Positions 4,352 through 64,000 of a DNA stretch of 64,000 nucleotides are shown piece after piece. The DNA comes from Heterotrichella gracilis. Lineage: Eukaryota > Sar > Xanthophyceae > Tribonematales > Xanthonemataceae. The first letter of the stretch is position 1; every line of letters starts with the position of its first letter. A program made the position numbers and the translations under genes. The stretch spans positions 95,359 to 159,358 of the forward strand of contig JAULBX010000448.1 in assembly GCA_032358255.1 (NCBI GenBank), written 5' to 3'. The notes beneath the pieces were generated by a model. The model searched no databases. It was not told where the DNA came from and saw nothing but the letters and a program-made list of their open reading frames with translations.

Positions 4352-6790
4352 ATGGCCTTCCCCAGAACCTTACGAATCGCGGTGTTTCTTGAGCACGGGT
4401 TCAGCTCTTCACTGCTCAGGGAACCCCCCCGACATTCAAGCAGGGAAGAACTGCTGCGCCGCCACGAAGCACTCCTGGAACGCCCCGTGCCTCCTGATGA
4501 GTTTGCACATTGACAGCCACCAGAGGATGCCAATGGGTCCTATGGTGACCTGTTTGAGTTTGCCAAGCCTCCTGTAGGGATGCCGGCAGACGTGGGGCAG
4601 CTGAGGGTCATGCACGTCAGCGGGCTGTCGGCAGGGACGTCCTTGGGCAGGGTGTACCGCGGGAGGGTGTTGCCTGGAACCCTCGTGGTGCCTCCAGCCA
4701 TGGACACAGGTGCGTCCAGGCCTTTCCACTAGGACCTCTTATCCCCATTGCTGTCGCCACCCCTAGCTTAAGCCAGACCTGCTGATCAACGAGGTCACAG
4801 TACAAGCCTGCACAGCCTTGCATGCATATATATGCACCGGCTCCCCTCGACAGGACCTATGCAAGCAACCCCATGTCATGTGACTTTTAGCCAACATCTA
4901 TTGGTATCGCTTGAAAGTGCCGCATATGGCATACAAGCAATACAGACAGACCAGCAGTTAACCTTGCATGCATTGTGCAACCCCTTGCAATGTCTCCTTT
5001 GGTGGTCTTTTGCCGACAGTGTGCTCATGTGAATGCGCTGGCAATGAAGAAGGCCTTAAATAAGGTTCTAGATATACCACATTCTGCATATATATACACA
5101 TATAGGCTATATATCAAGTAGCTTCTGAGGCCATTCGTACAGCCCACGCCTCTGCCAATGAGTGGGATTGTCCCACTGCCACAACTCCCCACCCTTGCAG
5201 CGGTGCACACCATCCTGGAGGATGAATTTGGGGATGTGGTGCCCCTGACCATGTACAAGATGTTTCCCAAGTGCCACTCCTACCCGGAGCGTCTGGAGGC
5301 TGCAAGGAGCAAGTTTGGCCAAGGCAAGGTGGTGGCAATGGTTGAGCCGCTGTTCAAGGTGATGCCAGGCTTGGAGCTGGGGATACGCGTGGACAACCCC
5401 AAGGAGGTGAGGTGTGGGCAATCCTTGCAAGGCACGTGCATGGCATGAGGTGTGGGCAACCCTTGCAAGGCACGTGCATGGCATGCGGTGGTTGCTTCGG
5501 AGCATGTCTTTGTGCACATGGAATTGCTGTGCACATCCAGGAATGCACATTCGCTACTGGACGGCTGGTTGTTGTCCTGCCCAGCTTGATGAGGAGCGCG
5601 TGGCGACAGGAAGAAAGGGTGCACAATTGCGTGCCGCCAGTGCATGCTTGCAAATGCATGGCACAGGAGGGATGGCGATTTTCTGCCGTTACAATGCAGG
5701 GTGTACTGTCTTTTAAAGAGCACTTGCATGTGACCCACCTGAAGTCGTTGGCATACCCGCCAGCACTGTGGTCTGCCAGCCCGTTTGCGCGTTGATTTCC
5801 TTAAAAAATGGCGCAGCACGTCAGTACCAATGCGAGTACGTATGCGGTCGTTGCATTGTGATTGTGCCGCATGCTCAGTGCACTCAGTATCACCGTCTGG
5901 TAGCATGAAAGCTGGTGGGTGCAATGCAAACCATTGAACACAAGGGTAACACAGACTTACCAGCCGCTGGGCCACTGTAGCGTAAATCGGAGCGGGACTG
6001 ATTGACCAGCGTAGGTGCCAGTCTTCATTATACAATTATGTCTTTACCGATTGACTGATACTGCACTTGGTGGCACTTGCAACTGCAGCCATGCATGTGC
6101 TTCCCCTTGAATACCTTTAAAACTGGTGTCATGCCTAGCTAGCACCATGTTCCTTTTCGAAAACCACCAATGCTCCCTGATGCGCAGGTGCTTTTCCTCG
6201 AACGCCAAGTCCCCACAGCCTCAGAGTAGTGGCACACCACAGCCCAGGGACAGCTTCACAACAACCCACCTGATGGCGCCCTCCCCTGCTTCTAAGTGCT
6301 GGGGAGAGTGTTCATCGCCCAGGCGGAATTCTGCCTGCAGCCGGGGTAGCCCATGGTTGGAGAGGGTGCAGCGGGCTTGGCCGCAAGGACATTTGTGCCT
6401 GGGCTCCATGCATCAGCGTAGATCTTGTGACAGCACGCAAGACAGCGCATCCCCCTCGTGCACATGAAGCTGGCGCAGCAAGACACCACGTCAATGTTGT
6501 CTCCAGCAGTTTCAAAATTTTTTCAGGTTTGTCAGACTTGTCCCCGGGCTAGCCTGTCCACCCCAGCAGAAGCAGGAGGAACAAGACAATTTGCAAAGGA
6601 GGGCACAGCAGCAGGAGCAGATGCAGCAGCAACAAAACTAATGCAGTGACCGCTGGCCAATCCACAACAGACCCTTCCTCCTATGCGTGTTGTGTGGGGC
6701 GGTACACAGCTTGCCGCCAAATATGTGCCCACATGCGGGGGCTGCGCAAACAAATATCTCAGAACCCTCATCTCTGGCGCACAATATTAA
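4352..6790 (+). pseudogene. Decayed tandem copy of the TPR-RING gene at 7478-10439
   Basis: Segments match the intact downstream gene in order. 4352-4710 matches its exon 1, including a start in the same context (gacATGG). 5199-5407 matches exon 2, with the VHTILEDE, GDV and EP-FKVMP-LELGIRVDN blocks. 6187-6300 matches the start of exon 3, and 6540-6770 matches the end of exon 4. Lesions: an in-frame TGA at 4511-4513 with homology continuing past it, stops in the exon 3 match, loss of most of the TPR region, and a RING remnant (near 6680-6760) lacking most of its cysteine ligands. A non-functional duplicate is the simplest reading; a short N-terminal product is possible but unlikely. Confidence 0.85.
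5411..5486 (+). repeat. 38-bp direct tandem repeat, two copies
   Basis: Two adjacent 38-bp units (5411-5448 and 5449-5486) differ by one base. They begin at the 3' end of the exon 2 remnant of the pseudogene and include its donor-like GGTGTG, so this is another duplication at an exon end. Confidence 0.9.
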
Positions 6791-14857: not shown

Positions 14858-15256
14858 GCAGCCTGTTTCTCAATGGATTTGGCTCAACCAATAACATCTG
14901 TATGTAGGATTTTTTTATCTTTTATTTTTAATTTTTCATTTGCATAGTACTGCCAATAAGTTTACAAGGGGGGTCAATTGAATTGACCTCAGGTCACATG
15001 ATGTAATTCACAATAGAACGCAATTGTTCGGGCTCGCGCATGCCACGCAACTGCCAATGTAATTGCTGTGCCTAGGCGGCCGTCCCATGCCCACCCCTCC
15101 AGCCAGCAAGCAGCATTCGGCCTTTTGTGGCCCACTAGCCCTTCACCATCGCTATGGTCCGGAGCTCAACTGTCTTCCCATTGAAACGCTGCTGCCTGCT
15201 CATGCAAATTACCCGGGTGCATCAGGGAAGCAGCAACCTTCAATGTGGCTGCCTCA
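14858..15256. other. Convergent intergenic region with a copy of the last RTCB exon end
   Basis: AT-rich 3' flank of the F-box locus. The only recognisable element is the partial RTCB exon copy at 15131-15192. Confidence 0.6.
15131..15192 (-). repeat. Partial copy of the RTCB last exon 3' end
   Basis: Resembles 15251-15312 (stop codon and preceding codons of RTCB) at an offset of about 120 bp, in the same orientation and downstream of the gene. Confidence 0.75.
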
Positions 15257-18200
15257 CTACCCCTTGACCACCGCGATGGGCCTCAGCTTGACCGTCTTCT
15301 TGCTGATGCCCGCTTGGTGGCACGTGTCCACCACCTCGCTCACATCCTTATAGCTCTCGGGCGCCTCCTCCATCACCAGCTTGGGGCTGGCCACCCGGAT
15401 GGCGATGCCCTTGGTCTTCAGCGCATCAAGAACCTGTGTGGGAGAATGGGGGTGAGGGGTCAAAAGTAATCGTGCGGGTGGTGATGCCTTTGCCATCAAG
15501 GAAAATCTGGGGCAAAGGGAAGCAGGGGGTTCTGTGGCGACTGCCCCAATGGCAAATGGCATCCTACAGATTGCAGGGTGGATCACCATCAACACCATCA
15601 GCATACTGAGAGCCCTAAAACCCTAATCACAAGCCTAATCGAGTAATCGTGCTTTATGCGGGTGCTGCACCCTCATCACAGCCCCGGGTGCCCTGAAACC
15701 CTACACAGCTACCATGGAACCCTAGCGATAGACTGCAACCCGCACTCTGCACCGTCATCATGGACTCTATGCAAACACTCTGGAACCCCTGCACCCTCCC
15801 CACCTGTTGGTACCCCAGGTTATTCCTGGATGAATTCCTTGACCGCGCCCTGCCTGCACCGTGGCAAGTGGAGCCAAAAGTCTCCTGCATGCCCTTCTCG
15901 GTCCCTGGGGAGGTGGGGGTGATGGTCAGCGGGGACGGAATACATTTATAAAGAATCAAAATGCGGCACAGCCGCACGACGCATGCATGCTGTTCGTGTT
16001 CGATATTTTCCTGGGGATGACCAGCAGGGATGGGAATGGGCAAAGTATGGCGCGACATGGAAAACGTGAATGGAATTGGACCCCTTCCGTATCATCACCC
16101 CACCTATGTTGCCGCCCACCCGTGAGCACATAGGAAACCATGGTTCGCCCTGCACCACCGCTAAACCCTAAACTCTAAACCCTAAACCGTACACCCCACC
16201 TGTGAGCACATATGAGCAGGTACCCATGGTCCCCCCGATGAGCACCGGCTGCCCTGTGAGCTGGTAGTCCACCGGGATGAGGGGGTGGTGTGGGGGGAAG
16301 GCGCGCGTGCTGCCCTTGCGGTGCACAAGCAGGGACATGGCCTTGCCGTCCACCCAATGCTCCTCAACCTGCAGCAGGAGGTTTAGTTAGGGTTTCAGAT
16401 AAGACTTTGAGTAGGTTTTGCCACCCATGGGGTTTGCCACCCAGTGCTCGACCTGCGAGGACATTCTAAACAGGGTTTTCCTTAGAGGGTTCTGTCGCTT
16501 GGGCTTGCGCTCTCCTTGCAGTGAACATGCAGCGGCATGGTGTTAACCAGTCTACCCACCTCGGCAATGTTGTTGCTGAAGTCATACACCACATGCATGT
16601 CCAGGTCATTGGGCGTTTAGGGTTTAGGGGTACGGGGATTGGATAGGGCTTTAAACAGGGTTTTATATAGGTTTTTGTCACTTACCTTTGCGATGTTGTG
16701 GCTGACGTCATACACCACATGCATATCCAGGTCGTCGGGCGTGGCCTTGAACATCTTGGCAAAGGCCTGGCGCGCAAGGAAGGTCATCGAGGTGCGGTTG
16801 ACCCACGCGTAGTTGGCGGCGCACGCCATGGCGGTGAGGTACCTTTGGCCCTCGGGGGAGTGGATCCTGCGGGAGGGTGGGGAGCCAGTGAGGGGCGTCA
16901 GGTGCTGAAAAAGTTGCAAGCAAGGTGTTGGGTGATCACACAATGCAATCTTCAACCCTGTGTTGACAGGATGAGTGATATGCGGGCTGACCAAGTACTT
17001 GGCGGCGCAGGCCATGGGGGCGAGGGACCTCTGGCCCTCGGGGGAGTGGATCCTGTGCGGGGTGGTGCGAGGGTGATGGGGATCCAATGGAATGTTGAAA
17101 GGGATTCGCAATGGGGCGATGGGGTATTGACTGGGGTGCAAGTAGAATTTTCCGCCACCGCATGCTACAGTTTGCACCGTGCCCCACCTGCGTGCTTTAG
17201 TTTTGTCACACCTTTCCAAAAAGGATAATCTCCACCATGATCTCTAACACCATCCGCCACACCCTACAGAGCCCACGCTGTGCTCCCACAACACCAGAAT
17301 TCCCCTAACCAGCCCATGCACCCATGCGAGCTATGTCCCAAGCACACCCTACCGCGCGCACGCCAGCTGCCTGTCGTTGACCTTGATCCCGTCCCTCTCC
17401 ATGGCCCGCTCCATCTCTGTGAGGGAGTCTGTGGCAACCTGGTGGCCCAGGCCGCGGCTGCCGCTATGGATCATGATGCACACCTGGGGATCGGGGGTGG
17501 GGTTAAGGACTACCGTTATTGATTGGGGATTGAGAACGGAGATCTAGCTAATCTGGCTGTACTACTAAAACGCATGTGAGAGTGGAAGAGGGTTGATAAT
17601 GGTGATGGTGACGGTATGGTGATGATGAAAGGGGAGGGGTTTAAAGAGAGCACATTGGTGGCCCAGGCCGCGGCTGGCACTGTGGATCATGATGCACACC
17701 TGGGATAGAGATGGGGACTAGGATGAAAGTCGGGGAGGGGATGGGAAAATGAATGTAAGGATGGAGTTTGCGGGGGCGTATTGGTATTGCCACCTTGTGG
17801 TCCAGGCCATGGCTCCCGCTGTGGATCATATATGATGCCCACCTGGGGATGGGGATGGGGGAAATGGATGGGAGTGGGGAACGGGTTGCAGGTTGGGGAG
17901 TGATAATCCACTGGGAATCCACACTGAGCAACGGCATGCACATAACCCTGGACACCAGCAACCACAGCCGCAACGACCACCACAGGCTTCCATCCCCATC
18001 AATTAAACCCTATTCAACCTTAAAGATTCTCAATTCCCGCGACCACACCACAGCCACCCCCACCACCACAGCCACTCCGCACCTGTCCCACTTGGTCGAT
18101 ACCCATCTTCCTTGCCGCCGCCAGGTCAAACACCTCATCCACCACCTGAATCTCAGCGTAGTGGTTGCCGGCGCCCAAGGTACCCATCTGCAGGAGTGGA

Positions 18201-21200
18201 GGGTAGGGGACTGTGTTTAAACTGTGCATTTTGGAGCCTCATGTAAATTACAAGTCATTGACAAATATTTTGATTCTCGGCGCAGTGGTTGCCGGCTCCC
18301 AGGGTTCCCGGGGGTAGGGAGTGGGCGGCTGCTTTTATGCAAAGGGGAGATCATCCCAGATGATAGTGAGCCTCACGTGGATTACAAGTCATCGGCAGTT
18401 TAAAGCAAGTAGACCAGGGATGGCAGCATCACTGCGGGTGGGGAGTGGGTGTGGGTAGTGTGCATTTACAAGGGGGAGACATGCAAGCCAATGCCCTGAT
18501 GCGCCAAGGGTTGGAGGTGACAAGGGAGAGAAGCTTTGCACCTGTGCAGGCCCCTCTTCCACACAGCAGCGGCCATTGCTTAGGCGCCATCAAACCCGAT
18601 TCTTAGTGTGTCAACAAAACCCTTCCCTAGGGTTTCTGCGCACCTGTGGCAGCCCCCTCTTCTTTGCCCTGGAGCTCACACAGGATGGGTCTGCCGCCAG
18701 CATGCGCCCATACTCCTCGCAATGCTCCTTGTCCTCAGCCCACGCGTAACCCTACAGAAGGGTTTGGACAAGGGTTGAAGTAGGGTTTAGGCAAAGCTCC
18801 TTGTCCTCAGCCTGCGCGTAACCCTACAGCAGGGTTTAAGAAGGGTTAAAGTAGGGTTTAGGCAGGGTTGGGGGCAGAACCACTCCTCGCAATGTTCCTC
18901 TTCTCACCCTCAGCCCTCGCGTACACCTACAGCAGGTTTTCAGAAGGGTTAAGTAGGGTTCAGTCAGTGGTGGGGGCGGAAACACAACAGCTCCTGTAAT
19001 GTTGTAGTTCCCCGCCTGCGCCGCCCTACACTAGGGTTTACACCGCCTTGCCACTCCCAAACCCTAAAACCCTAAATCACCTTCCGAAGCAACGAGTCCA
19101 TGCCCATCGCCAGTGCCACTCCCAACAACCCTAAACTCTACCGCATTCCCAAAATCTAGACCCAACCTTTTAAACCATTCTCACCTCTCGCAGCGACCAG
19201 TCCATTCCCATCTCCAGTGCTGCTTCCAGGTCCTTGCGGGTGGTGGGGATGATGCCCTGAGACCCCACCCCCACGGGTATGTGGTCAAATAGGGACTGGG
19301 CGAGCTGCTCCTTGAGATGAGCCACATCCTTCTCTAACTGCAGTATGGGGGACGTAGTTAAAACGACAAGGTTGGAAAGAGGATGTGGATGGGATACCCA
19401 TGAAGGGGTGGGGCCGTTTTCCATGTCTCGATTCCTGGTGGGTCCCATGAGCCTGGCGGCTCATTGAGGTCCAACCGCAGCCCTCATCAGCTTAAGGGTC
19501 TAGGGTGTGTACCCTTCCCCCCCTCACTCGCCGCCAGTGGCCTGACTGACCCTGGCCCACATTTTACATCACATGCACCCATCTACAACAAATTGGTCAA
19601 CACTTCAGTGCCCGCATGCACCCTTCACACTCACCAGGTTTGTCCGGATGAGCCTGACCCCGCAGTTTATGTCGAACCCCACCCCCCCTGGGGACACCAC
19701 CGCCTCGGGGTTGTTCATGTCGAACGCCGCCACATTGCCGATGGAGAAGCCATAGCCAGAGTGCACATCGGGCAGGGCGATGGAGCTCTGTGGGGGCAAG
19801 GGGTGGGTGGGTGGGAGGAGGGAATCAATGGAGGCAGGGTAGTCGGATAAAAAAAGTGGTAGTCTGCCACGGTCTGCCACAGTTCGGTAGCATTCAGTGG
19901 CAACTAACGGTAGTGGTAGGCAGGGTTGTGCATGTCAAATCTTGCCACGTTCCCGATGAAGAAGCGTACCCCAAGTGCACATCAGGCAGGGCGATGGAGC
20001 TCTGTGGAAGTAGGGAGGGGGTGATGGAGGGATGAGCATAGCAAGCGATGAGGAATGGATGAAAGGACCCACCCCGCCGGCGGTATAATACAATAAGAAA
20101 ATGGTGGAAAGTCTGCTGTAGTTTTGTAGTATCTGTTTGGCAATTGACCTTTGCATGGCAATTTGGCTTTGCAACAACTTTGCAACCATTGCTAGCCCCA
20201 ATCCAATGCGCATAGCAATGCACACGCAATACGCCATGGCGTGCCATGTTGCTGACCACTGGCAGATTTTTCTTCAACCCCCTCCCCCCCTCTCCTCCAG
20301 AACACACACCTTGACGATCCCCGGCATGGCCGCCACGTTTGCTATCTGCTTGACAGCTGGCAGGAACCCACCATGGCCCCCGCTGGCCGAGTAGGCGTGC
20401 AGTTCATCGTATAACAACCCCTTGAGGCGGTCGTTCACGTACACGCGGCCTGGCACCAGCATGTTGGGCACAAAGCCCGGCAGGATGTCATAGTGCACGG
20501 GGCCCACTTGGCGGATGTAGGCGGACTCCTGTGGGGGGGGGGAGGGTTTAGGGTTTAGGGTTTGGGGCAGGGAGGACACGAAGGCATTGGGGTTGGGGGC
20601 GTGGGGGGAGAGGGGTTGGAGGCTGAAGGGGATTTGAAGCGGCTTGGCACGCACATGTTGAGCACAGAGCAAACTGCTAGCACAGGGCATATTTGACAGA
20701 CATTAGCGGTTTTGCAGTGGGGAAGCGGGGGTGTTAGGGAGGGGTGGGCAGGTGCGGGGGGAGGGGAGGTATGGTGGGTGGAGATGGGGTGGTGGTGTGG
20801 GGGGACACTGAGTGTGCCCTGGTTATGTAAGTGCCTGGAGGTGGGTGCAGTGTATTCAGATGGTTGTATACCACTACAACTCAGACCTGCCGATTGCCTA
20901 TGTACCCCAGAGGCCCTCTGTGGTAACAACTGCCCAATCCGTGATAATGAGCAACAGTGCAACTCTTTCTTTAGCGTGTGCTGACAAGATGTGACTGGTG
21001 ACAGGCCCATATGCAAAACCGTTGGGCACTGGTGACCACTGCCACCTACTACAAGTCTTGAGGGGTGTATTGAAACCAACGGCACGCCACTTTCAGCTGC
21101 ACTTGCCGTGCCGTGCCACCAAACCCAGTAGGTGCGTACGAAAGTAAAGTTCAGAGCGGAACCAAGCAGAGGCTAGTGGCACGCGAAATTGGCCACGGCA

Positions 21201-27900: not shown

Positions 27901-30209
27901 TGGGCACCAGTCCCCCATCCACGTGTGACGTCATCCATTTCCCTCCCCTTCTTCTCCCTGCAGGCACGTGTTGGGGCCCTGGTGGCTGGGGTCCTGGACA
28001 TTTGTGGTGCCTCCCCCCGGCGCACATTCTTCCAGTGCCTGCAAGAATGCACCCCGGATGGCATGCAGCGGGAGCGGCTGGAGTACTTTGGCAGTGCAGA
28101 GGGGAGGGACGACATGTACACATACAACCAACGGGAAGGTAACGGTTTTGTGCAATCTTGTGCATCATCGACCCATTGCATACACGACTCCCTGCAAGGG
28201 TTGCTGAGGGCTTGGAGTTGTGTGTGCGGCATTGCGGGGTTCTCCCTGCATTGTACGATGGCAACAGGAGGACTTCAATATATCACGATATATTATGTTA
28301 TATATTGAAGTCCTCCTGATGGCAGCCCTAGGTGAAGGTTTAATGATGAGACATGCATATGACTGAATGAAGCAACACATGCATGGAATCCTGTGACATC
28401 CGATGACTGTCCGCTCAAAATTGTTACCCCTCCCCCACCCCCCTGCAGGCCGCACAGTGATGGAAATCCTCCAAGATTTCTCCTCCTCTACACCCCCCTT
28501 GGACCTGCTGCTGCAGACCGTGCCCCACCTCAAGCCGCGCCAATTCTCAATCTCCTCATCCCTGAAGATGCATCCCGGGGAGGCCCACCTCACTGCCGCC
28601 ATCGTCCAATGGAGGACCCCCTTCAAGCGACTGCGCCAGGGTGTGTGCACGTCGTGGCTGGCGGGTCTAGACCCTAGCGCAGGGCAGGTAGGGTTTTGGG
28701 CGGGTTTGTGGCTGTGGGTGGGTCCTGCCAGGTTGGAGAGGGCGCTGGATGCAAGCTGCCAACTGCTGTGGCTGGTTGTGTATTCGCACGCACATGTGTA
28801 CATATGATTGCATGCATGTCAGCAGTGCAGCCAGATTGGCAGTCAAAGTTGCACAGCTGGTGCTACCCAGCTCTGTCTTCACAATCAAAACAAACCGCTT
28901 GTAACTGTATTACAAAGCATAACCATTCCATTATCTAGTGGCTCCACAGCCTGGAATACTGGCTCCAAAGCCTGGAAGAAACCTTGGTTGCTTGAACCAA
29001 CATGCTCCACAAAACCATCACCAGGCACACCACCGCCTCGCCCATGCACCTTCATTTTCACCCTCTCAAACCACACACCACGATCCCTAAACCCTGAATC
29101 CAAACCCTCATCGCCCATGCACACTCATGTGCGCGGTCTCCCAGCCCCCAACTCCACATTGCCTACCCTTCTCCCCACCGCAGGTGTGTGTGCCGGTGTG
29201 GGTGGAGCGTGGCGTGATGCGCCCCCCACCCACCCCCACCACCCCCATGGTGCTGGTGGGGCCTGGCACAGGGGTGGCCCCTCTCAGGGCAATGCTGGAG
29301 GACAGGAAGGCGGACCAGGTAGCAGGTAAGGGGTTGAGCTAGGGTTTAGGGTCCACGCTAGGATGGGGCAAGGGTGTGGGGCGTAATGCTGGAGGACAGG
29401 AAGGCGGACCATGTGGCAGGTAAGGGGGTTTGCGTTAGGGTCTGGTTGAGGGTTTGGACCTGGGGTTTAGGGAGGAAATGCTGGCAGAACGACAGGTTGT
29501 GGGCCAGGCGGCATGGAAGGGTTTGGCTAGGGTCTGCTAGGGTTTCGGCGAGACCTGCTCATCATGGAGCTGCTCGCGGACCTGGGCAGCAGATCGAGGC
29601 AGTGTATGGTAGGGTTTAGGGTTTACGACTGCAGTGGTGCAGCCCTGGTGTAGATGCACCGCTCCATGTGGATAGGCATGATATGCGCTTGACCTGGCTG
29701 AGACGATTGTCGTTTCCTAGTGTGCATAGGGAAGCTCATGAAATCTCCACTCCACATGCAACCCCACGCATGGCCTGGAGCCATCCCCATGTCAAACCCC
29801 TGTTTTTAATTCTCGCTGGCCTGCAGGCATCCCCATTGCTCCCAGCTACCTCCTCTTTGGCTGCCGCAACTGCAAGGGGGATTATTACTACCAATCGCAA
29901 TGGGAGGAATACACGCGCACGGGGGTACTGGCTCCCCAAGGGGGACTAATCACCGCCTTCTCACGGGACCAGGCCCAGAAAGTGTACGTGAGCCACCGCA
30001 TCCGGGAGCATGGCGAGACCCTGTGGAGGGTATTGCAGCAAGGGGGGGTGGTGTATGTGTCGGGGTCGGCGGAGAAGATGCCGCAGGATGTGGCCAGGGC
30101 ATTCTGCGATGTGGCGGTGGCGCAGGGGGGGATGAGTGAAGAGGAGGGGAGGAGGTTTGTGCGGGGGCTGGAATTGCAGCGGAGGTACTTTGTAGAGGCG
30201 TGGTCTTGA
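24941..30209 (+). CDS. NDOR1: NADPH-dependent diflavin oxidoreductase 1 (Tah18/ATR3 type)
   Basis: Ten exons join in phase: 24941-25006, 25352-25486, 25882-25993, 26236-26429, 26650-26992, 27340-27485, 27964-28138, 28449-28687, 29184-29325, 29827-30209, giving 644 aa (human about 600). Order of domains: FMN flavodoxin (LYGSQTGNAQ at 13-22, FGLGDSGY), FAD-binding (FQDVRHITLDI, QPGDLLAMWP, RQFSISSS), NADPH-binding (VLVGPGTGVAPLRAML, LFGCRN, AFSRDQAQKVYVSHRI, GGVVYVSGSAEKMPQDV). The C-terminus RYFVEAWS is typical of the family. Known role: passes electrons from NADPH to Dre2/anamorsin in cytosolic Fe-S cluster assembly. No membrane anchor is present, unlike cytochrome P450 reductase. The start of exon 7 lies in a threefold 120-bp repeat, so the true acceptor is less certain there. 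Confidence 0.95.
27725..28010 (+). repeat. 120-bp tandem repeat across an NDOR1 acceptor
   Basis: The segment from CTCCCTGCAG|GCACG through GGCCCTGGT-GC-GGGGTCCTGGACAT recurs at 27844 and 27964, exactly 120 bp apart. A degraded third copy begins near 27749. The period is divisible by three, and a single frame stays open through all copies (27748-28138), so upstream acceptors would add 40 codons without a frameshift. Confidence 0.9.
28257..28326. mobile_element. MITE-like perfect hairpin flanked by direct repeats
   Basis: An 18-bp perfect inverted repeat (28266-28283, AGGAGGACTTCAATATAT, and 28300-28317) has a 16-nt AT-rich loop. It is flanked by 9-bp direct repeats GATGGCAAC (28257-28265) and GATGGCAGC (28318-28326) with one mismatch. 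It sits in NDOR1 intron 7. The structure fits a very small non-autonomous insertion with a target-site duplication. No transposase is present in the window. A structured RNA hairpin is the alternative. Confidence 0.55.
29374..29425 (+). repeat. Partial copy of the 3' end of NDOR1 exon 9
   Basis: Repeats 29290-29340 (AATGCTGGAGGACAGGAAGG, then CGGACCA and GCAGGTAAGGGG), including the donor, 84 bp downstream. A GGGTTTAGGG motif separates the two. Confidence 0.92.
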
Positions 30210-47341: not shown

Positions 47342-48287
47342 GCTGTGCTGGCAGAAAATTGTTGTGAAGTGCTGGGTGGAGCATGTCTTGTTTACATGAA
47401 GTTTCCTTGGCAGTGACCTTATGTATAGGACGCCGCTTCATATAGCTTACCGGCCAGCCCTTATCAGAATTTGTATCATGCAAAGCTGCCCAAGTTTAGC
47501 GATAGTGCACCCCCCTTGTCCAGTGAGAGGGGAAGGGATGGACTTTGCCCATGGGCCACGCATGGGCAAATGCTGTCTTACTAATTAGTGGGTGTTGCGC
47601 AGTATATTTCTGTCACTACTCCAAAGTATTTCTTCCAAGTTCATGTTGTTGAAACAGCACTCATAATAGTCACCGTTATGTAAACTCCACTGGATACCTT
47701 GGACCCAACAACAGGTTCAACCTGCGCCTTTTCTGTGACGCTTACTTTGCCCACAACTTACCGTAAAAAAGGGAAACTAAAAACACCTACATCGTCCTTG
47801 TACTCCAGCTGCCTGGCAAGCAGGTGGAGTGGCGCAAGTCCGCCACTAAAGTTCAGGTTGCAGTGCAGAGACGTGTGTCCACAAAATAAGATAGTCACTA
47901 CCTGGCTAGGGTTCTTGCAACATGTACGCTTCAAGTTGGAGGCACAAAATATGCAGCGCGCTTTGGACCCGCAGCCTTCAGGCAATGGTCCACCCGCCAA
48001 CGCCATTTGCAATGGCACCGTTCCGCACCGTCCTCCCCAAGCTGTGCATAAATTGCCCAGGCTCCTTTCCATCCCCTCCACCCCCCGAGCTGTGTATTCT
48101 GGGTGCAAACCCCTTGCCCCCAGCAGCCCCAGCTTCCCATTGACCACCACGTCCAGCGGCTTTTTATAGACCTGGGTCTCCAGGCTTCTGCGGTGCAAAC
48201 ACCCCCCCCAGCACCCGCTGCCGATGGCGCAGCCCTCCCCTCTTCCCGCCAAGAGGTCCCGGTGATGAACCCCGCGCCCTCACCCTC
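47342..48287. other. Intergenic region upstream of TAG and downstream of glucokinase
   Basis: No independent gene. Holds a copy of the end of the glucokinase last exon (48104-48172) beyond the gene's stop. Confidence 0.6.
48104..48172 (-). repeat. Partial copy of the glucokinase last exon 3' part
   Basis: On the minus strand it encodes VVVNGKLGLLGA, matching VVINEKLGLLGAKEF in the real exon (source 48313-48383). It lies about 210 bp downstream of the stop. Confidence 0.85.
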
Positions 48288-51200
48288 TCATTCCGACATG
48301 GACAGCAGCCTGGTGGCAAACTCCTTTGCGCCCAGGAGGCCCAGCTTCTCGTTGATCACCACATACAGGGGCACCGTCTTGAGGAAGGCGTGGAACTTAG
48401 GGTTTTCGCGGTACAGGAAACCCTCCAGCACGCTGCCCATGTGCAGCCGCTCAAGCACCTGCGCAAGGGGAGTAGGATTGGTTGAAGTGTTCATGCAGCT
48501 GCTGCTAGGGTTTGGGATTTAGGGTGTAGGGTTTGGCAAGTGAAGAGATGGCTGGAGAACATGCCACCATTTCTCATCGAGCCTACCCACCACCACCAGG
48601 CTGCAGCATTGCAGTCCCCCCCCCTCCCTCGCCTCCGCATGCCAACCCTTTGCCTCACGCCAATTTGAGAAAGCAATGCATCCCATGCGACACACAATCA
48701 TCAACCTCCTCGCAAACCCAACTCCACAACCATCCTCAAATATTAAAAACAATCCACACTGCGCATGTGCCACAACCCTGCACACCATGACACCCCCGCA
48801 CACCCACCACCACCCTCTGCACTCACCTTTGGCGTGATGCCCCAGCACACATCCCCCCTCTCTTGTGCCAACTTAGGAAAGCAATGCAGGTCAACCCTTG
48901 CCTCGTACAACCTGAAGAAGCAATGCAAGCTGCGCATGTGCCACAACCCTGCACACCCACACCATCACACCCACACACCACCACCACCACCCACCTTTGG
49001 CGGGATGCCCCCGCACACATACACCCCCCCCCTCGCCAGCGTGCGCAGCGCCATCTGCCCCGCCTCCGCACCCACTATGGCCAAAAACATGTCCAGGGCC
49101 TCCACAGCCAGGGGGTCACTGCCATCCAGGGCGCTGCAGGTGATTTCGGAGGGACCCTGGGGTGGGGGAGAAGTGGGGGTTTCGTATGGCTAAGTCAGTG
49201 AACTTTAATGTGGAGGGAGGTGGGGGTGGTGCAATGGGGGTGTTGTCGGACAAGATGGTGGTGGAGTGGGTGGAATGAGAGAGGGCATGGATGTCCAGGG
49301 TTTCCACAGCCAAGCGTCACTGCCGTTGAGGGCACTGGTGGTGATTTCAGAGGAACCATGTGTAGGGTGGGCGAGTGTTGGGGGGATGGAGCTGGCGTAG
49401 CGGGACTGGGTATTCAGGGGACTGGTGAATATGCGACACAACTGCCTCATTACCCATCAACATGCAATTGTTGGCCTCATGGTAATGCAGAATCATGATA
49501 CTGCAAGTACTAAAATTCCCTGCTCAAGATTTTTTGTGCAAGAGTTTATTTAATGCATTTCTATTCCCTACATCCTGCAACGTGCTTTGCATAAGCGCAG
49601 CGCTAGTGTCGCCTCACCTTGACCATTGACATATCCATTTCTGGCCTGTTCTGCCTAATGTCGCTGCGCAGGAAGTTGTAGATGCGCTCAAGACCCACGC
49701 CGCACGCAACCTGGGGGAAGGGCAAGCTACTTAGGGTTTGAGTAGGGTTGAGATAGGGTTTTGCGCAGGAAGTTGTAGATGCGCAAGGCCCACGCCGCAC
49801 GCAACCTGGGACGGGGGAAGGTAGGGTAAGGGCTTTCGAGTTGGCATTTGGGCCAGGGTTGGCGCACCGTACCAGCGCCCCACGCCATCTACATCAGCAC
49901 GGGGGTGGTGAAGGCAGATGTGATGGCCAGGGGTTTGGGTGGATTTTGGATTAAAATGGGTGGGTTTTTTGTATGCTCTGTACCCCTACCTGTCATGTCA
50001 CTAACATATGTCGCTAACTCGCTGTGTGCCACCTATCACCCATCCCAAGCCCATAGCATGCTGCATGTTCAAGGTTTAGGCATAAGAAGTTCAGATGAGG
50101 GTTCCAGTGCAGCAATGAATGATGGGTGCACCCCTCACATACACCAGCCTGCAGTACCCTAGGGTGTCCTCGACGCAGAATTTGGAGTTTTTTTCATGGG
50201 TGCACCACTCACATACTCCAGCTCGCAGAACCCTAGGGTGTCCTCGATGTACCCCTGCAGCGCCCGCTGCTTCCACCCCCTTGGAGCAAACGTAGCATGC
50301 GCCCCCTCCGAGGGGAGCACCCGGTACTGGCCCACCTCCCACACAAGGTTGGCCTCGCCTAGCCCTGTGCCGGGGCCCAGGATGGCGATGGGCTCCTGCG
50401 GGGAGGTTGAGGGTTTGTAGGGTTTTAATATAGGGTTTGGAACATTCACACAAGGTTGGCCTCACCCAGCCCAGTGCCGGGGCCCAAAATGGCGATGGGC
50501 TCCTGCAGGGGAGTGGGGGGGGGGAGCTGGTAAACGTTCAGAACCTGGTACTAAGAGGTTTGGCTTTGAAGCTGGGATGCAAAAGCTTCATTACTCAGGT
50601 TAAATAGGGGACAATGATATTTTAAGAGTATATTTCAGTCATCATTAATGTCCCCCACAGTCGCAGGTATATAATCCATTATATTGATGTTTCCCACTTG
50701 TCCCTACCTCTGGTATGGCTGGCACATCGTTGATCTGCACCACGTCCTCTGGCAGCAGCCCCAGTATGCCGTACCCATTGGCCTCAAAGTCGTTCAGCAC
50801 AGCCACCCTGCACCATGGGCTTTGGTGAGATGCTGGCAAGGGTTTAGGGATTAGGGTTTAGAACGTAAGATTCAAGGTGGAATCTTACATTATAAGGTGC
50901 TGACAAAGGGTTTATTGTTTATGGTGTAAGATTGGGTGCTTTCTTTCACAGTCGTTTCAGCACAGCCACCCCAACTCACACCATGCCATCAGCCGAGGAA
51001 CTTTCAAGGCAGCCTGTTGCATCGCAGGTCATGAGCTGTGATGAAACCCGACATTGAACTGTGATGTCCGCAGCATTGATCACCAGCCTGTGGAGTTTGG
51101 TGAGCTGACACCGCTGGCTGATAAAAAACCGTAAACCCTAACATTTGCATTCCAACCGGCCAGCCAGATCGTTCAAAATTGCGCCGCATGACGCCATGAG

Positions 51201-52767
51201 ACTCACGCGTGAGAAACAGGCAGCGCTCCTGCATTCTTTAGGGTTTAGGGTTGCGCGCACCTCCAGCCGTATGTCTTGTTGATTTCGGCACCGTCGATCA
51301 CCCAGCCCTGGCGGTTGGTCAGCTGACACCGCTGGCTGACCACTGGGCCCGCGCATGCAAAGGCTGCGGACTTGATCTGGACATCCGAGTGGGTGGCCAC
51401 GTAGCTCGCCAGGGCGTCGTTGAAGGTCTCAAACTCCAGGGTGGGGATGATCTGCAGGGCGACGGGGGGTCCTGTTAGTGCGTGCTAGGGTTCAGGGACT
51501 AGGGTTCCGGTCGGGGTTAAGTTTAGGGTTCAGGGACTAGGGTTTCGGTCGGGGTGGAGGGGCTTGCCACAAGCTTGCAAGGGACCTGCTTGAGTAATAC
51601 GTGCTACAGTAGGATCCTATTGTGGCGTGTGGCCTTGTGGCAGCTTTATAGGGTTGCACCATCTGCCTTGGACCCTAAACCCTAGACCACAAGTCCTGTT
51701 GCTCCTCCATCAGACAAGGTTAGGACAAGTTCCCGCGAATGCGTACACTATCACGTGTAGGTAGCAAGGGGTGGAAGATATCGAGGGGTGGATGTTGTGA
51801 GAGGTGCATGGGGGCGAAAGGGGTATGCGCCTCACCGTTTCGTCTATGAAGGTGCTGCTTGAAGCCCCTGAGCCAGCCACCACACCAGTCACCACCCTCC
51901 ATAGCTGAAAGCGGCAGTTGGTGCCGCCAATGTCAGCGATGATGACGGCCTGCGATCCCTGGGAGCCACAGAAAGGCAACTAAAACCGCTGATATCCTCA
52001 CAAAGACTTGCTGTGAGGCCATTGGGGTAAAGAAGCGGTGGCATGGTTGGCTTGATTAGGAGCTTCACCACAGTATCCAGAGCGAGTAAGAGTGCAGAGT
52101 GCCTTCAAGCTCTAGGGTGACTTGTGTACACTTTTACACCTACCTGCGCAGCAGCTAGCACTGGTGCTTTGCTGGGCTTTGCCGTTGCAGATGCCATTGG
52201 CGCAGGGCGCACCCATGGGGCACGACCTGCTTTGGGGAAGGGCTTCAAGTCAGCTAAAACAGCCACAGGATGCACTGAATATGTTGCTGTGCAACCTTAG
52301 CAGAAGTACTGCCCCGAGTGGTCCTGTGAGGTTGTGTCGTGGTCAAAGTGGGCATGTCATGCAGATGTGACACCCTGGAAACGCTTGTGGCAAGCAGCTG
52401 CTGGGGTTTCGAGAGGTTCCTAGACGACTACATTGGTTCTAAGCCCTGGCTAGGTACAACAGCGCTTCACTCAACCGTGTTCCGCTGCGGGATTGTGCTG
52501 TGGAATTGAGTAGATGGACTGCAATGCATGCATATGTGTCACCCAGACATGCAGCACGCCACCAACCCACACCTCCGATCCTTTCACGGTGACAAGCTCG
52601 GGTGAAAGCCCCAGATGCAACGTACCTGTACGTCTCGTTCCAGCTAGTTGGTGCTGGAAACCTCGTAATTGTGTGTTGAGTGACGGGCGAGGTGGGTCGA
52701 CCGCTAGGGCACGCGCTGGCCTGGCGCAAGGGGTGGCGCGCAAGGCAGATGCTGTAGCGACCTTCAT
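48288..52767 (-). CDS. GLK: Bacterial-type glucokinase, probably plastid-targeted
   Basis: Eight exons: 52767-52573 (candidate transit peptide), 51958-51836, 51451-51261, 50807-50708, 50395-50213, 49710-49618, 49156-48995, 48458-48288; about 405 aa. Exons 2-8 are in phase and give the bacterial Glk fold: IIADIGGTNCRFQLW (ATP phosphate loop), AAFACAGPV, TNRQGWVIDG, VAVLNDFEANGYG with the catalytic Asp, AILGPGTGLGEA, SEGAHATFAPR, VACGVGLERIYNFL, GGVYVCGGIPPK and VINEKLGLLGA. Known role: ATP-dependent phosphorylation of glucose to glucose-6-phosphate. Exon 1 is inferred from an ATG opening an Ala/Arg/Ser-rich presequence and a phase-0 donor; it is the least certain part. The many introns exclude bacterial contamination. 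Several introns contain partial exon copies. Confidence 0.92.
48826..48875 (-). repeat. Partial copy of the 3' end of glucokinase exon 7
   Basis: CACCTTTGGCGTGATGCCCC and GCACACAT match the exon 7 end and donor (source 48988-49035), with shared flanking CAACCCTGCACACC. In the downstream intron. Confidence 0.85.
49285..49360 (-). repeat. Partial copy of the 5' end of glucokinase exon 7
   Basis: ATGTCCAGGGTTTCCACAGC, then TCACTGCCGTTGAGGGC and GTGATTTCAGAGG match 49090-49157. Upstream intron. Confidence 0.88.
49759..49810 (-). repeat. Partial copy of the 5' end of glucokinase exon 6
   Basis: GCGCAGGAAGTTGTAGATGC and GCCCACGCCGCACGCAACCT match 49665-49715 with a three-base difference in length. 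The acceptor is retained, and a CCCTA/TAGGGTTT tract lies between the copies. Confidence 0.92.
50128..50180 (-). repeat. Partial copy of the 3' end of glucokinase exon 5
   Basis: GGGTGCACC-CTCACATAC and ACCCTAGGGTGTCCTCGA match 50198-50252, including the donor. Downstream intron. Confidence 0.9.
50447..50510 (-). repeat. Partial copy of the 5' end of glucokinase exon 5
   Basis: About 60 bp matching 50341-50400 with only five or six mismatches by eye, acceptor included. One of the youngest-looking copies. Confidence 0.93.
50949..50978 (-). repeat. Partial copy of the 5' end of glucokinase exon 4
   Basis: GTCGTT-CAGCACAGCCACCC matches 50789-50808. Upstream intron. Confidence 0.75.
51075..51128 (-). 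repeat. Partial copy of the glucokinase exon 3 3' part
   Basis: TTGATCACCAGCC, then TTGGTGAGCTGACACCGCTG match 51293-51340. Downstream intron. Confidence 0.85.
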
Positions 52768-63673: not shown

Positions 63674-63928
63674 GTGGCCACTATCGGATGTTTCTTCTGG
63701 GCTGCCATGGCAGCAAGCGCCTCCTTCTTGGCAAGCTGCTGTGTCGTGATGCGCTACTTGATTGAATGGCCGCTCAGCGCTATGCGTGCGCCAGAGGCTC
63801 TTGGCAGCTTTCCAATCTGTGAGCGCACCAAAACACTGCAGCTTGCCAAGCGTGAGGCCCTTGCTGCCGTGGCAGCAAGGTTTGCCCTGCGCACCAGAAG
63901 CTGCTGTCCTCCTGCCTGCTTATGTTAG
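63674..63928 (+). other. Open segment, possible second exon of the MFS-like gene
   Basis: Encodes one hydrophobic helix (FFWAAMAASASFLAS) followed by Ala/Arg-rich sequence. No convincing acceptor precedes it and the second half does not look like an MFS protein. It may be an exon with unresolved ends or noncoding. Confidence 0.25.
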
Positions 63929-64000
63929 TTAGTTACATGCATTCCAGCAAAATAGCCAGATTAGCAGTCAGTCTTGCACATGCGGCGCCACGCAGCTCTT

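Follow-up and report, generated by a model that had tools for sequence, protein, structure and literature searches.

Schiml et al. 2016 reportedly described small tandem duplications that arise from paired nicks in plants. In mouse cells, fill-in by CST and DNA polymerase alpha-primase leads to small tandem duplications at staggered breaks (PMC8355091). What these share with the exon-end copies described in this report is that a break is surrounded by some tens of bases doubled in direct orientation, and a telomere complex, CST, acts in the known pathway; here, in contrast, many pairs hold sequence added between the 2 arms, and the doubling lies at exon-intron borders. Interstitial telomeric sequences in mammals are inserted at double-strand breaks (PMC2246262), and are similar to what we observed in that short telomeric tracts lie at repaired breaks with some of the flanks doubled; duplication of the flanks is a minority outcome there (6 of 130 rodent loci and 4 of 25 primate loci). 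Duplications formed by capture of proximal DNA (PMC2671141) are likewise small and local, include splice sites and often carry filler. Introns gained through tandem duplication, or when breaks are repaired with direct repeats (review PMC3443670), share with our copies the doubling beside AG or GT and a surplus that is spliced out, but differ in that here it is existing introns that grow. The part of the Coccomyxa genome paper (PMC3446292) on which we drew makes no mention of exon-end copies with telomeric filler, and we found no report of such copies at splice borders among the titles and abstract openings of the open-licence literature. The repair chemistry is known elsewhere; as far as this search reached, the concentration at junctions in many genes, together with telomeric filler at the borders, is new.

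The window, by which we mean the whole 64,000-nt stretch of DNA analysed, contains an RTCB gene that we rebuilt on the minus strand as ten exons with GT-AG borders and a single open frame. A small, home-made, ab initio gene finder, trained on RTCB (and so in part on these same exons) and on long ORFs, returned all ten exons exactly, along with three small false exons, each of which proved to be an exon-end copy; this is a warning for annotation, since such copies can be called as exons. The features of the locus are collected in Table 1. Partial copies of the neighbouring exon ends had been noted at 12 places in the introns of this gene by the initial annotation. We aligned each of them to its exon end and compared the result with 91-bp windows drawn up to 1000 times from the rest of the window, draws at 15000-20600 being discarded; 11 of the 12 beat every draw, the exception being the marginal match near 16436. 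All 12 are in gene orientation and lie on the side that had been claimed for them, copies of 5' ends upstream and copies of 3' ends downstream. The claim that each copy includes its splice site needs amendment for 2 of them, namely the copy at 15131, which derives from the end of the coding region with the stop codon, and the copy at 18270, which has lost its AG. In a self-comparison of the locus the strong direct repeats had offsets of 72-355 bp, and the inverted matches listed in it were telomere-like tracts. The spacer between exon 6 and its first copy matched only itself in a search of the genome, and gave short matches against the sampled sequence described below.

Table 1. Exons, exon-end copies and associated features, in positions of the window (fractions are identical over aligned bases)
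Feature	Position	Strand	Basis
RTCB exon 10, stop codon 15257-15259	15257..15433	-	rebuilt gene and gene finder
RTCB exon 9	15804..15904	-	rebuilt gene and gene finder
RTCB exon 8	16200..16368	-	rebuilt gene and gene finder
RTCB exon 7	16686..16866	-	rebuilt gene and gene finder
RTCB exon 6	17353..17483	-	rebuilt gene and gene finder
RTCB exon 5	18083..18187	-	rebuilt gene and gene finder
RTCB exon 4	18644..18751	-	rebuilt gene and gene finder
RTCB exon 3	19185..19337	-	rebuilt gene and gene finder
RTCB exon 2	19635..19787	-	rebuilt gene and gene finder
First recognised RTCB exon (short upstream first exon not located)	20310..20528	-	rebuilt gene and gene finder
Exon 10 end copy including stop region, 33/43	15135..15177	-	random windows
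Exon 8 3' end copy, 19/21	16115..16135	-	random windows
Possible exon 8 5' end copy, 12/13, marginal, p ~0.012	16437..16449	-	random windows
Exon 7 3' end copy, 51/59	16558..16616	-	self-comparison and random windows
Exon 7 5' end copy with AG, 63/71	16995..17065	-	self-comparison and random windows
Exon 6 5' end copy with AG, 46/49	17656..17704	-	self-comparison and random windows
Exon 6 5' end, second copy, 53/62	17789..17854	-	self-comparison and random windows
Exon 5 5' end copy, AG lost, 33/39	18271..18309	-	random windows
Exon 4 5' end copy with AG, 43/47; within 72-bp tandem unit	18791..18837	-	self-comparison and random windows
Exon 4 5' end, second copy, 47/54	18882..18940	-	self-comparison and random windows
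Exon 3 3' end copy with GT, 38/48	19077..19124	-	self-comparison and random windows
Exon 2 5' end copy with AG, 63/77	19923..19999	-	self-comparison and random windows
Spacer, exon 6 to its first copy; no significant match to corresponding intron flank	17489..17655	.	
Telomere-type tract, CCCTAAA orientation on +	16161..16188	.	
Telomere-type tract separating exon 7 from its 3'-end copy	16615..16629	.	
Telomere-type tract between exon 4 and its first copy	18781..18791	.	
Telomere-type tract with three perfect units, close upstream of first recognised RTCB exon	20543..20563	.	
Second stretch dense in junction copies; PP2C gene predicted in 47-57 kb chunk	48099..51339	-	

Exon-end copies are real, far above chance and general to many genes. 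This was observed in a sample of about 0.4% of the assembly (68.5 Mb in 903 contigs, with 43 matches to chlorophyll a/b-binding proteins), which comprised 20 stretches of 10 kb from eight contigs and the window as eight chunks, or 28 stretches and 264 kb. Exons shorter than 55 bp were dropped, introns of at least 100 bp were admitted, and 400 bp of intron beside each junction was searched; intron and intergenic labels throughout are predictions of the gene finder, which calls little intergenic sequence (25 of the 264 kb). Five further loci (L007, L008, L009, L011 and L012), which telomere-like or other short matches had brought in, were used in gene-finder training, in the 397-intron test given below and as subjects of the spacer search, and enter no other counts. 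At score 32, a copy of the exon end was found in the adjoining intron for 58 of 627 junction entries (the window chunks overlap, so that the 627 entries and the depth-scan counts given below include repeats; the 58 positives become 54 once repeats are removed), against 0 of 627 for the reversed intron, 0 of 627 for unrelated introns and 2 of 544 for the intron on the wrong side. At the looser score of 24 the controls were no longer empty (own intron 73/627, reversed 3, unrelated 3, wrong side 13/544). Acceptors and donors carried copies equally (31/314 and 29/313 at score 30). The supposition that RTCB is specially dense in copies did not hold, in that they are widespread in many other sampled stretches and elsewhere in the window, where 48.0-51.4 kb and 54.0-56.6 kb are two further stretches dense in junction copies. 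Their distribution over the 28 stretches is uneven (chi-square 93.7, p 3e-9; 0 of 2000 permutations reached this value), and some stretches with 20-39 junction entries have zero copies. Predicted protein stretches from affected regions matched Pfam in 8 of 8 cases, including a DEAD helicase, sucrose phosphatase, PP2C and flavodoxin.

We observed that the doubled part is anchored at the exon-intron border. Exon windows of 40 bp taken at depths of 0, 40, 80 and 120 bp matched the intron in 45/603, 11/486, 2/372 and 0/233 cases, respectively, and at the same four depths in exons of at least 190 bp the matches numbered 15, 5, 2 and 0 of 233; inverted matches of such windows to the intron were 0 at every depth. 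Pairs at offsets below 420 comprised 91 direct and 0 inverted, self-alignments of one place being left out. Under a rule that keeps self-alignments, 18 inverted pairs at less than 400 bp were counted, which were not listed individually and are presumably self-palindromes, and one weak inverted pair was seen in the window (29084/29447, E 0.004). The remark that copies vary in divergence is borne out by aligned identities of 71-100% over the 91 pairs. Mismatches in the copies fell at codon positions 1, 2 and 3 in 69, 82 and 162 cases over 839, 842 and 834 sites, respectively. Copies drift neutrally, since this pattern fits a copy that changes everywhere and an exon that changes mainly at third positions. 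In the 54 junction pairs there was also a suggestive clustering of offsets near 101 and 189 bp, two preferred offsets giving a BIC of 40.5 vs 46.2 for one.

The telomere repeat is TTTAGGG, and contig C770 starts with a perfect CCCTAAA array; from this repeat and the chlorophyll a/b-binding proteins one would expect a green alga. The genome-wide count of a 21-base form of the repeat was 406 for one strand and 428 for the opposite one, figures that include overlapping places and true telomeres, and its backward-read control was found nowhere in the genome. Telomere 7-mers numbered 30.9 per kb between copies, 19.5 in copies, 4.9 in other intron-labelled sequence, 2.1 in intergenic-labelled sequence and 0.56 in exons, with 0.77 expected from base composition. 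Telomere tracts lay in intron-labelled sequence in 95 of 101 cases and were flanked by direct repeats in 34 and by inverted repeats in 1 of the 101, against 43 of 505 control intron sites; in both location and flanks they differ from the mammalian insertions described above. With respect to the gene, the tracts had no clear strand bias (40 and 55). After adjustment for length, a tract was more likely in introns with a copy (odds ratio 3.0, permutation p 0.002), and among introns of at least 400 bp the association was not significant (odds ratio 1.8, p 0.14). In a young cluster at L032:3291-3542, three copies, 95-96% alike in two listed comparisons, are joined by TAGGGTTTAGGGTTTAG-type sequence. 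Other pairs regarded as young are those at L029:4751 and, in the window, at 17440 and 49665. Long GCATGCATGC runs are also frequent genome-wide, a 20-base pattern having been counted 70 times per strand.

Our preferred reading, to which we assign somewhat better than an even chance, is that the copies are scars of small break repair in which ends are doubled and filler, often telomeric, is added, preferentially at exon-intron borders. The border would suffer a staggered break or a pair of close nicks, one in each strand; both overhangs would be filled in, which would double some tens of bases across it (roughly 25-130); and extra sequence, frequently TTTAGGG repeat, would often be inserted between the arms before joining. 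The arm on the exon side would stay in use as exon and splice site; splicing would remove the other arm, together with the filler, as part of the intron, and both would then drift; and repeated events would give longer introns with copies of differing age. Direct doubling combined with inserted sequence would be expected from such a series, in which staggered breaks or paired nicks are followed by fill-in, addition of filler and joining. The staggered break and the fill-in are inferred, as are the origin of the filler in telomerase or telomeric capture and the cause of the junction bias; as to why borders should break, our guess would be linker DNA at the edges of exons, or breakage connected with transcription or splicing. 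Tentatively, we also raise the possibility that exon-intron borders are recurrent break sites, at which doubled-end repair with telomerase-made filler continually lengthens the introns of many genes, junctions then being mutational hotspots. Intron growth has mostly been inferred from old events; here a single genome shows its steps at differing ages, and the arms, the filler and the retained splice site can still be read. Were junctions break hotspots, the places where DNA breaks would depend on gene structure or splicing, and the telomeric filler could serve as a tag for counting events in strains and for tests in repair or telomerase mutants.

The process originally proposed for RTCB was plain short tandem duplication across splice junctions, kept because it spares the reading frame, and such events would now be represented by copies whose intron half has decayed past recognition. 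Direct orientation, polarity and junction anchoring all agree with that proposal, as do the full or nearly full tandem units at 18719-18985 (RTCB exon 4), L017:5363, L032:3291 and L015:8975 (186 bp at offset 193) and the weak similarity of the intron part across the set (median z 1.8, 51 pairs). The whole event, however, is not accounted for. In 35 of the 54 pairs, those in which the copy reaches the junction and the spacer is at least 30 bp, we compared the spacer with 40 simulated tandem duplications whose intron part was given 1.5 times the divergence of the exon copy and 2% indels; the intron part was recognisable in 17 of the 35, where 34.4 were expected under tandem duplication at the measured divergence, and many pairs therefore hold spacer sequence that was not duplicated from the intron. 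In 25 of the 35 the intron part was less alike than in all 40 simulations. Frame-sparing also fails to explain the junction bias, because wholly intronic duplications spare the frame equally and fall several-fold to tenfold short of the number expected. When uniform events were simulated on the annotation we had predicted, under constraint and drift and at a fixed detection score, the ratio of junction to intron-only clusters came to 0.50-0.55, whereas the 69 observed clusters comprised 49 at junctions, 10 intron-only (4 of them in introns of up to 1500 bp between real exons, a restriction not applied to the 49), 10 with both copies in predicted exons and 0 intergenic. Another filter gave 43 junction, 8 intron-only, 8 exon and 0 intergenic clusters, with 0 inverted. 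Two neutral copies of one junction still matched each other in 5 of 9 two-copy entries at score 39 and in 8 of 9 at score 32 (2 of the nine are one cluster viewed from both sides), the reference being 45 of 54 exon-copy pairs at score 39; allowing for this loss of copy-copy matches, the junction excess is by our own arithmetic about seven- to tenfold. The excess over the uniform-event model is strong but not final, depending as it does on our own gene finder and a simple model, and the same picture would arise if purely intronic duplications were lost faster. Taken with the spacer results, these observations lead us to hold plain tandem duplication rather unlikely.

The order of events could also be the reverse of that in the break-repair reading, with pre-existing intronic telomere-type tracts acting as fragile sites that provoke nearby duplications, as a cause and not as filler. 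Telomere words and pair counts are correlated over the 28 stretches (r 0.77), and at least 3 words occur in 120 of 569 introns without a detected copy, both of which would be in keeping with fragile tracts. Against this, in 44 pairs (after exclusion of nested pairs, of spacers shorter than 15 bp and of pairs lacking a clean intron flank), the telomere word was present in 19 spacers against 8 outer flanks, and was more abundant in the spacer in 16 pairs and in the outer flank in 5 (p 0.012); in the L032:3291 cluster, moreover, the flank after the last copy is without a telomere tract. We consider tract fragility an unlikely cause. Counting against the break-repair reading, in turn, are the 25 of the 44 spacers that have no telomere word and the 5 of 44 pairs in which the outer flank has more. 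Less likely than tract fragility, in our view, is a function for the copies, such as the decoy or alternative splice sites suggested in the initial annotation or alternative exons, which appears improbable from the sequences: AG or GT is kept in 24 of 36 junction-reaching copies (26 of 54 of all copies), and three RTCB copies were called as exons by the gene finder, but the neutral mismatch pattern, gaps of which 23 of 26 are not multiples of three and the lack of a frame preference in the offsets (d mod 3 = 0, 1 and 2 in 17, 21 and 16 pairs) argue against such a role. Most improbable, in our estimate, is that break repair by strand invasion captured DNA from close by and pasted exon pieces randomly into introns. 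This has a vertebrate precedent, with linked segments as long as 619 bp, splice sites among them (PMC2671141), yet random pasting predicts inverted, wrong-side and exon-interior copies, which we found in 0/627, 2/544 and, at 120 bp depth, 0/233 cases.

Several minor observations were made in the course of this work. Of 397 predicted introns, 2 had donor and acceptor regions that are copies of each other at a score of at least 22 (0.05 expected), as an intron born by duplication would have, and one of these, L029:4762-4899, was convincing. In it (region 4751-4914), a perfect 26-bp direct repeat spanning AG/GT surrounds 112 bp of AT-rich AAATAAAT-type sequence, and the region is inside a 607-codon frame without stops. 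This may be an intron newly made by the same repair process or, since the 607-codon open frame crosses it, may equally be an in-frame insertion. One repeated sequence common to the spacers would point to an introner-type mobile element; when 47 spacers were compared with the sampled sequence the matches were mostly short, with one short dispersed repeat in two spacers; a sequence of 30-50 bp is common to the spacers at 17547-17577 of the window and L026:4248-4298, and is also present in L014, in L029 and at 28805-28840 and 63927-63977 of the window.

Two other RtcB genes were seen in the assembly. The gene at L001 (G000:C1:769386-773459) is one open frame without interruption, and GC is 35.5% in the stretch around it and 54% in the window; on these grounds it was left out as a comparison, and contig C1 is likely to be a bacterial contig in the assembly. 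The gene at L013:4007-6747 (G000:C739) is a second RtcB, of bacterial type, with piecewise Pfam matches and genome-like composition. It seems to have introns and may possibly reflect gene transfer, and it was rejected as a paralogue control, the predicted protein looking different by eye and of bacterial type. Finally, the segment 34442-44529 of the window carries about four related genes in tandem, with ORFs of 461, 458, 471 and 431 aa, which lie ~2.8-3.1 kb apart and are 65-88% alike piecewise.
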